A stretch of 53,884 bases of DNA, from the NCBI GenBank assembly GCA_031283445.1, contig JAITBT010000064.1, forward strand, positions 1 to 53,884, read 5' to 3'. Each line of letters begins with the position of its first letter. The stretch's first letter is position 1. Both the position numbers and the translations under genes were made by a program. Under the pieces are notes generated by a model that saw only the letters and a program-made list of their open reading frames with translations, ran no database searches and was not told the DNA's origin. Positions 22,829 through 25,487 of this stretch are shown piece by piece. This stretch comes from Holosporaceae bacterium (GTDB taxonomy: Bacteria; Pseudomonadota; Alphaproteobacteria; UBA3830).

Positions 22829-25279
22829 ATGAAAATTTGGTCTAGAGTTGATTTAATTGGTTTATTTTTTCTAATCTTCGGGATAATTGCTCTTATATGC
22901 TCAAATTCAAATTGGCCAGCTTTGTTTTCTCTATTAATTTCTTCGGTATTTTTTCTACATAGTATCTACAGCACTAAGTTTAATTCCGCCAAATATCTGA
23001 ATATTTTGTGCCATTACCAGGCAATTTTGTCTTCTTCATCCAATGGATGGATAGCTTGGAGTATCGACAACGAATATATAGGTTCTTCAAAAGTATTACG
23101 GGCATTATTTGGGATCACGTCAACTTGTAATATTTATATAGCTGATTTTTTATTAACTATTGATTCAGCAGATGCGGAAAATTTATCACTCTATTTCAAT
23201 AGACTAAGAAAAGAAGGTACTAATTTCCAGTTGTCGATAAAAATCAGCCAAAACAACAAGATAGTAGAAATTAATGGCTTTCGTATAATCATAGGCGATG
23301 TTGAGACATTATTATTTTGGTGCATAGATATTACAAAGTCATCCACAATAATTAATTCTGCAGAGGAAAAATTTCATCAGGCTAGGAAAAAACTGAATGC
23401 CTTGGAGGAAGTTCTGAATATGCTTCCTATTCCCGTATGGAAACGTAATAAAAAACTAGATATAGTCTATTGCAATAAAACCTACTCTAATTATCTTAAT
23501 AATACAATCGAGCAGGTTTTGACGGATAACATTCCGTTAATTCCTGGACATTTATTCGGTCAGGGACACTCGTTAGCAGAAAACGCCAGAAAATCTAATC
23601 GTTCTCAAACTGTAGCGCAGTTTATTACTGTTTGTGGCGTTCGAAAGAAAATCCTTATGCAAGAATGCCCAGTTCCTGACGGAACCTTTGTTGGATATGC
23701 TAGTGATATAACCACTGAGGAAGCTCTTACTACTAATTTAGATAGAATAATAACTGCTAATTGCGAAGTACTGGAGCACTTACCAACCGCCATCGTAATC
23801 TTTGGAGAAAATACTCGGGTAGTTTTTTTCAATAGTGCCTATCACCGCCTCATGAAATTGGAACCAGGATGGTTGCACTCTAAACCAACATTTGGGGAGG
23901 TGCTCGATGAATTGAGAAATAATCGACAGCTGTCAGAACAAGCAGATTATCAAGCATATAAAAAAGCGCAATTGGCATTGTTCACTTCGCTCAACGCTCC
24001 TTTTCAAGAGTTAATTCATCTCTCCAACTGCAAAACATTACGGTCTCTGGTCGCTCCTTATTCATTGGGTGGTCTATTTTTTATATATGAAGATGTTACA
24101 GATTCTCTTGTGCTACAGCGCAAAAATAGTACTCTGCTGGCAGTACAAAAGGAGACTATTAATAATTTACACGAAGGAATAATGGTATTCGGTAGCGATA
24201 ATAGGTTAAAGATCATCAACGATGCTATGCAAAAAATTTGGAAATTTGATAAAGAAGTAGCCAGTCTGCGTGGCACGCACATTTCGGAAATTTTGACTTT
24301 TATGAAAGATCAATTAGATTATGGAACGGACTGGGAAGAATTTAAAGAAAGTACTTTAAGCAATTTAACTGATAGAATTGTGAAGACCGGCAGGTTGATC
24401 AAAAAAGATGGCTTCATAATTTTATTTTCCTATATTCCGTTGCCGGATGGCGCTCATATGCACAGTTTTAGCGATATAACCGATACCTATATGGTGGAGA
24501 GAGCGGTTATGGAGAAAAACCAAGCGCTGAAAATAGCCCAAGAGTTTCGGTTTGAATTTGTTTCTGGGATTTCAATTGAGCTAAAAGAGCCTCTAAATCT
24601 GCTAATTGGCTTTGCCGAGCTGCTACTCCATCAATATTTTGGGCTTTTAAACAAAAAGCAGCTGGAATATTGCCAATGCATATTGGAGGCATCTAATCAA
24701 CTACATCGACTTATTAATGATCTGCTGGAAATGGTTTCCATCGATGTGGATTCTGCTGAATTGAACATTTCTTCGTTTTCGATTCAGGAAACTATTGAGG
24801 AAGTCATTAATAGCTTAGAAAAAAGAATTAACGAAAGGAGCGTTAGTATAATAAAAAATTATCCTAAGCAGAATATAGAATTTAATGGGGACAAAATTCG
24901 CATAAAACAATCTATCTATAACATATTAACCAATATTATACAGGCAGTTTTGCCCAATGAAAAAATAAACATTATTGTCACTGCTGTTGAAAATTTAAAG
25001 ATCATAATAAGAAATGATAATATGAGATTCTTTCCCAACAGGAATAGCAATGCCGTGAGGCGTTCTCCAAAAGAAATGGTTCGCTTTCTTAATGGTGAAA
25101 ACGGTGTCAGCATGCCGTTAGTAAGATCTTTGATAGAATTGCACGGTGGAACGCTAAAAATTAATTCTGATTTTGGAGAGGGAATGTGTGTTATTTGCAC
25201 TCTTCCGATTGCACCGAATAAAGATCATAAAACTACACAAAACGATATCATTAATTCTTCAGAAGTTGTAAATTCCTAA
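22829..25279 (+). CDS. PAS-rich DivL-like histidine-kinase relative lacking the phospho-acceptor His
   Basis: An 816-residue membrane protein. Two hydrophobic segments at about 8-25 and 30-46 are followed by roughly four PAS-like repeats (about 70-540). A HisKA-like helix pair (about 565-645) and a GHKL-like ATPase domain (about 680-805) complete it. The H-box reads SIELKEPLN where kinases have SHELRTPLN, so Ile583 replaces the phosphorylated His. The N-box Asn remains (NILTNII) but the DxGxG box is gone (RNDNMRF) and the second glycine box is degraded before LIELHGG. DivL, the alphaproteobacterial cell-cycle regulator, has a similar layout with Tyr in that place. It probably signals by binding rather than phosphorylation. 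An AtpZ-like gene follows after one base. Confidence 0.75.
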   Translation: MKIWSRVDLIGLFFLIFGIIALICSNSNWPALFSLLISSVFFLHSIYSTKFNSAKYLNILCHYQAILSSSSNGWIAWSIDNEYIGSSKVLRALFGITSTCNIYIADFLLTIDSADAENLSLYFNRLRKEGTNFQLSIKISQNNKIVEINGFRIIIGDVETLLFWCIDITKSSTIINSAEEKFHQARKKLNALEEVLNMLPIPVWKRNKKLDIVYCNKTYSNYLNNTIEQVLTDNIPLIPGHLFGQGHSLAENARKSNRSQTVAQFITVCGVRKKILMQECPVPDGTFVGYASDITTEEALTTNLDRIITANCEVLEHLPTAIVIFGENTRVVFFNSAYHRLMKLEPGWLHSKPTFGEVLDELRNNRQLSEQADYQAYKKAQLALFTSLNAPFQELIHLSNCKTLRSLVAPYSLGGLFFIYEDVTDSLVLQRKNSTLLAVQKETINNLHEGIMVFGSDNRLKIINDAMQKIWKFDKEVASLRGTHISEILTFMKDQLDYGTDWEEFKESTLSNLTDRIVKTGRLIKKDGFIILFSYIPLPDGAHMHSFSDITDTYMVERAVMEKNQALKIAQEFRFEFVSGISIELKEPLNLLIGFAELLLHQYFGLLNKKQLEYCQCILEASNQLHRLINDLLEMVSIDVDSAELNISSFSIQETIEEVINSLEKRINERSVSIIKNYPKQNIEFNGDKIRIKQSIYNILTNIIQAVLPNEKINIIVTAVENLKIIIRNDNMRFFPNRNSNAVRRSPKEMVRFLNGENGVSMPLVRSLIELHGGTLKINSDFGEGMCVICTLPIAPNKDHKTTQNDIINSSEVVNS

Positions 25280-25280
25280 A

Positions 25281-25487
25281 ATGAAGAATGACAAAAACAA
25301 GCAATTGCGATTCATGGCGGCGTGCGGAGTTGAGTTTGTTTCAGCTGTAATGGTTGGAATGGGTTTGGGGGGATGGCTCGATAAATATTTTCATAAATTT
25401 CCAATTTTTTTAATAATATTTTTTCTGCTGGGTTGTATTTCCGGGTATTTCAATATAATAAGGCATATAAATGAGACGAAGAAATAG
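25281..25487 (+). CDS. AtpZ/AtpI-family small membrane protein
   Basis: A 68-residue protein with two membrane helices at about 15-33 and 38-58. GVEFVSAVMVGMGLGGWLDK, PIFLIIFFLLG and GYFNIIR are hallmarks of the ATPase_gene1 (AtpZ/AtpI) family, which assists assembly or magnesium supply of F0F1 ATP synthase. Such genes usually precede atpB, but no ATP synthase gene lies downstream here. Instead it follows the DivL-like gene by one base and probably shares its transcript. Function in this position is inferred only from the family. Confidence 0.75.
   Translation: MKNDKNKQLRFMAACGVEFVSAVMVGMGLGGWLDKYFHKFPIFLIIFFLLGCISGYFNIIRHINETKK

Follow-up and report, generated by a model that had tools for sequence, protein, structure and literature searches.

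An isoleucine-bearing DivL pseudokinase and a DivK without its phospho-aspartate in Holosporaceae: a possible phosphate-free contact module

Results

The divL gene and the domain layout of its product

The window, by which we mean the whole analysed stretch of 53,884 nucleotides, encodes on its forward strand a pseudo-histidine kinase of 816 residues (positions 22829–25279), which we identify as the orthologue of DivL from its open reading frame with an ATG start, Pfam, phmmer and a phylogenetic tree. All features of the gene listed in this paragraph lie on the same strand. The protein begins with two hydrophobic helices (about residues 8–25 and 29–48; 22850–22972), which are probably membrane-embedded as judged from their sequence and which correspond to helices 6–25 and 28–69 of the AF2 model. 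They are followed by a PAS-like domain A seen in the AF2 model without a Pfam call (residues 73–167; 23045–23329), by three domains recognised by both Pfam and AF2, namely PAS domain B (203–293; 23435–23707), PAS domain C (321–422; 23789–24094) and the PAS_7 domain D (450–549; 24176–24475), by the helical hairpin of the DHp (HisKA) domain (556–640; 24494–24748), likewise supported by Pfam and AF2, and by a degraded CA (ATPase-like) domain (646–795; 24764–25213), delimited by Pfam and alignment.

Besides the PAS folds, Pfam assigns HisKA to residues 576–639 (47 bits) and HATPase_c to residues 687–795 (39 bits), and the NCBIfam search returned general kinase models only, all far below cut-off. 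The AF2 model (mean pLDDT 80) has a pair of long helices at the N-terminus, then four PAS-like domains, the DHp hairpin and the CA fold, with the CA lid region (733–760) unstructured, and its Foldseek matches include the DivL structure 4q20. This order of a predicted N-terminal membrane part, several PAS domains, DHp and CA matches the DivL type. Directly 3′ of divL lies an open reading frame of 68 residues (25281–25487), which by eye has the look of an AtpI-type small membrane protein.

Orthology to DivL

In a phmmer search of PDB sequences, only one chain scores better than Caulobacter DivL (4q20; E 2.3e-18). Among 61 relatives from the family and the class, nearly all genomes of the family have an orthologue that is complete or almost so in length, at about 52–73% identity, though in some cases it is fragmentary. 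The named family members are Holosporaceae MAGs and a single Yak omasum alphaproteobacterium MAG. The genomes from across the class each yield a single long best match to the DivL query at about 27–36% identity. In one relative (L038, genome G036) stops and a frameshift interrupt the frame of divL, through either sequencing error or real decay. In a tree of the DHp-CA region with 62 rows, 37 of them DivL, all DivL rows, our protein and 4q20 fall on one side of a branch with support 99/100 that is present in 100% of bootstrap trees, separate from CckA and from other kinases, including PleC/DivJ-like ones. The proposal in the initial annotation that this might be the DivL of the lineage is thus borne out by the placement inside, and not outside, the DivL clade, and by the presence of CckA and CtrA in the genome (see below).

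Phospho-acceptor site, H+4 residue and ATP boxes

The motif SIELKEPLN starts at Ser582, which puts Ile583 (codon 24575–24577) in the position of the phosphorylated His, as the initial annotation had read it; alignment and codon agree. Among the 30 informative family rows, mostly 52–73% identical, the acceptor residue is Thr in 16, Ile in 8, Val in 4 and Leu and Ala in one each. Neither a phosphorylatable His nor the usual DivL Tyr occurs in any of them, and Ile583 is therefore not a product of chance or of assembly error. Across 85 class DivL rows the same position holds Tyr in 70, His in 8, Ala in 4, Cys in 2 and Gly in 1; since Tyr is usual in DivL but has reported exceptions, we did not use it to define DivL. 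The DivLs of Paracaedibacteraceae (Odyssella, Finniella) keep the Tyr, so that its loss likely took place inside the Holosporaceae lineage.

A second substitution lies four residues downstream, at position H+4 (Glu587; codon 24587–24589). This residue is acidic (Glu or Asp) in 29 of the 30 family rows, and Glu in all four rows of the families f2 and f4, but in none of the 85 class DivLs, where Thr, Ser, Asn, Ala or Lys is found. In HisKA kinases, the Thr or Asn at H+4 is needed for phosphatase activity and positions a water molecule at the phospho-Asp of the receiver (PMC3510030, PMC5231405). As the canonical residue works at the receiver active site, we infer by analogy that the new acid of DivL would be expected to face that site as well.

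Within the CA domain, the N-box Asn702 is retained (24932–24934). Both glycine boxes are degraded, as was already suspected from this one sequence: G1 is reduced to RNDNMRF without a Gly (25010–25030), and G2 to GENGVSMPL (25094–25120), in which GxGLGL is gone and S-M-P, in place of GLGL, forms a signature of the family.

Sequence constraint on the DivL domains

Our protein shares 44% identity with class DivLs over the PAS region 301–430, 44% over the DHp and 22% over the CA domain, versus 52%, 65% and 44%, respectively, among the class DivLs themselves. Within the family, identity is highest in the DHp (72%) and low in the CA domain (48%). The dN/dS ratios (NG86, nine pairs) are 0–0.08 for the DHp, 0.03–0.10 for the PAS region and, where defined, 0.005–0.12 for the CA domain, and 0.06–0.24 for DivK; these ratios are rough because dS is large or saturated in several pairs. 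As far as can be read from the sequences, purifying selection on the DHp is strong.

A DivK without phospho-aspartate, next to pleD

A search for divK in the genome led to a protein of 136 residues (L070), the DivK of the family, which is encoded elsewhere in the genome adjoining pleD (L067); the own-genome copies of both lie on contig C15. The two genes are on the same strand in all 29 family loci and are adjacent in class genomes too. Identity between family and class DivKs is only about 19–24%. When the degenerate DivK is used as query, canonical DivK is the best match in all ten class genomes that have one. Its model is a receiver fold whose match to DivK 1mb0 (82 residues at rmsd 2.0, Z 10.9) is equalled by those to other receivers. 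The protein accordingly has the fold, the best match and the gene neighbour of a DivK, but lacks the phosphorylatable Asp53 and the acidic pocket.

Residues are numbered here after what we take to be the Caulobacter DivK sequence; class DivKs carry the same Asp at position 53. The family alignment has 32 rows from 30 genomes, three of them copies of the DivK of the window's own genome. The equivalent of D53 is Asn in all 32 rows, and that of D10, the second Asp of the acidic pocket, is lost in all 32 (to Gln, Lys, Asn, Arg or Ser), whereas Ser83 is retained in 32/32 and Lys105 in all 30 informative rows. Phosphorylation of this DivK is improbable, given the Asn. We found no report of a natural DivK with this substitution in the open-access literature, and a search there for DivK in Holospora gave one passing mention only.

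The neighbouring PleD shows a similar pattern: the phospho-Asp of its first receiver domain is lost in 29/29 family rows (Ser, Ala, Thr, Phe, Cys or Val), but the GGDEF motif is intact in all 29 and the RxxD inhibition site is kept. c-di-GMP synthesis by the family PleD may therefore be independent of phosphorylation of the PleC/DivJ type.

CckA, ChpT, CtrA and other kinases

Of the downstream pathway, CckA and CtrA are present in the genome with their phospho-residues in place. The genome encodes CckA (L060), with the motif GGVAHDFNN and an intact receiver, and CtrA (L063); across the relatives, the His and Asp of CckA are retained in 35/35 informative open reading frames, the Asp and pocket of CtrA in 30/30, and the His of ChpT is invariant in the sister genomes that have it. 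Searches with the PF10090 profile and a family alignment did not find chpT in the own assembly, which is 94% complete; as most sister genomes, and the nearest ones, carry ChpT, an assembly gap is likelier than a loss.

Five HisKA matches were found in the genome, which also encodes NtrY/NtrX, a hybrid kinase and a further kinase on contig C77 (L059/L130; C77:28521–30758). The last was considered as a PleC/DivJ-type kinase for DivK and dropped, since it groups with hybrid/MHYT kinases in a comparison that held no curated PleC reference. Its His is lost throughout the family (Asn in 25 rows, Val in 3, Ser in 2, Ile in 1), with ATP boxes and H+4 Thr largely intact, and it is perhaps a phosphatase-type or ATP-sensing pseudokinase.

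DivL and DivK states across families

The sister family f3 and the genome G051 have a PAS-only DivL of 552–570 residues (L056, L057, L058, L068), and no recognisable DivK was found in them; the DivK-like matches in the f3 genomes belong to a different response regulator (EDNEMNRDML type) and were rejected. With families as units, a Tyr-bearing DivL occurs with canonical DivK in ten and without it in one (f9), and a non-Tyr or DHp-less DivL occurs without canonical DivK in six (p 0.0006 by Fisher test; 0.0025 with the ambiguous f6 counted against). As families are not independent, this co-variation is only suggestive. The D53N substitution in DivK and Glu587 in DivL both seem to date from close to the root of the clade, which would make their association one or few events.

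Discussion

A proposed contact module that may work without phosphate

Considering the orthology, the loss of phospho-residues from DivL, DivK and PleD, their retention in CckA, ChpT and CtrA, and the purifying selection seen in these sequences, we regard it as probable, though by no means secure, that DivK and DivL form a contact module that regulates CckA without phosphorylation, with both the complex and its effect on CckA inferred. With its acceptor lost and its ATP site degraded, the DivL of this host-associated family would have no autokinase chemistry. Its PAS domains would contact CckA, and the surface of its DHp would bind the pseudo-receiver DivK, in which Asn replaces the phospho-Asp; this input would tune CckA, ChpT and CtrA with no phosphorylation of DivK. 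The acid at H+4 would then face the emptied, Lys-containing pocket of DivK, where it may replace the charge of the phosphoryl group. More tentatively, and with the odds in our view somewhat against it, the whole input arm of CtrA (DivK, DivL and the PleD receiver) could have been turned by selection into a contact circuit free of phosphate, in which a pseudokinase Glu stands in for the charge of a receiver phospho-Asp.

The initial annotation had suggested that this DivL was reduced to a pure interaction scaffold. This is plausible but does not cover everything. No domain is better conserved in the family than the DHp, which is under strongly purifying selection, and the partner DivK is itself non-phosphorylatable; more than decay alone, the pair seems to be a contact switch that was kept and rewired.

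It could instead be that DivL retains its function in the PAS part alone, acting on CckA, with the DHp-CA region and DivK as leftovers of a course that leads to a PAS-only DivL. The strongly degraded CA domain fits this course, as does the state of f3 and G051, where a PAS-only DivL and the lack of a recognisable DivK go together, the same association as in Rhodobacterales (PMC2877005; PMC9430884). The constraint on the DHp runs counter to it, as does the persistence of DivK in about 30 genomes of the family, where N58, S89 and K109 are invariant, and we consider it unlikely. Slightly further down the scale, we doubt that DivK bypasses DivL by acting on CckA directly (or with PleD), leaving DivL as an independent CckA scaffold. 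Such a role has a precedent in Osp of Rhodobacter sphaeroides, which inhibits CckA without phosphorylation and is active in its D51N form (PMC9430884), and divK still adjoins pleD; but the acidic H+4, like the strong constraint under which the DHp has evolved, suggests that a receiver still docks there, and DHp and DivK were lost together in f3. It is very improbable that DivL is an active kinase of an unconventional sort that relies on a different residue. Glu584 of the DHp and the N-box Asn702 are kept and the G1 Asp is present in 26 family rows, but our protein has Asn729 at the corresponding G1 position, and neither the G1 nor the G2 motif survives in it. The acceptor site holds Ile, Thr, Val, Leu or Ala with none conserved, and the DivL of Caulobacter, whose boxes are better preserved, has no intrinsic autokinase activity, not even in its Y550H form (PMC4211667).

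Comparison with known systems

The proposed DivK–DivL contact module is best compared with Caulobacter crescentus DivL (4q20; PMC4211667), which binds DivK via its DHp without kinase activity (PMC4211667). The two proteins share a DHp-CA clade, the multi-PAS, DHp and CA layout, an acceptor site without His and the presence of the CckA-CtrA pathway; they differ in that Caulobacter DivL has Tyr550 in place of Ile, Thr in place of Glu at H+4 and better-kept ATP boxes, where here G1 and G2 are lost, and in that the DivK partnered here lacks the phospho-Asp, unlike that of Caulobacter. The PAS domains of Caulobacter DivL impose phospho-specificity, and once they are removed both forms of DivK bind similarly (PMC4211667); given binding via the DHp, a phosphate-free contact would thus be a modest change. 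Full-length Caulobacter DivL, however, strongly prefers DivK~P (PMC4211667), so that phosphate-free binding would have to involve a change of specificity.

In Rhodobacterales, the PAS-only DivL likewise has no kinase chemistry and the lineage lost canonical DivK (PMC2877005, PMC9430884), the PAS-only form being always accompanied by the absence of DivK (Brilli et al., PMC2877005). While DHp-CA and DivK are absent there, both are retained here in phosphate-free form. The PAS-only state of f3 and G051 resembles this known case, and the Holosporaceae DivL adds an intermediate between a full DivL with DivK and a PAS-only DivL without it. Osp is similar to the family DivK in being a non-phosphorylated single-domain receiver that controls the CckA system, a role that the family DivK would share; Osp retains the Asp without the DD pair and the Lys (PMC9430884), whereas the family DivK has Asn for Asp, keeps the Lys and is encoded by divK by position.

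What turns pseudo-receivers on or off has been stated to be unknown (PMC12632262). The pseudo-receiver and pseudokinase described here are orthologues of a well-studied pair, and their substitutions, matched at the expected DivK–DivL contact, offer one testable mechanism for such switching, in which the retained function of DivL need not depend on phosphate.

A Tyr is not obligatory in DivL, as seen from Magnetospirillum with Ala (PMC4211667), Rhodospirillales with Ala or Cys and Azospirillum with His, yet none of these non-Tyr class DivLs has the acidic H+4 of the Holosporaceae family. The Azospirillum relatives (L244, L261, L243, L251, L260) carry their acceptor His in the motif VSHHLRNPL or VSHHLRTPL and have a deleted or degenerate G1 region.
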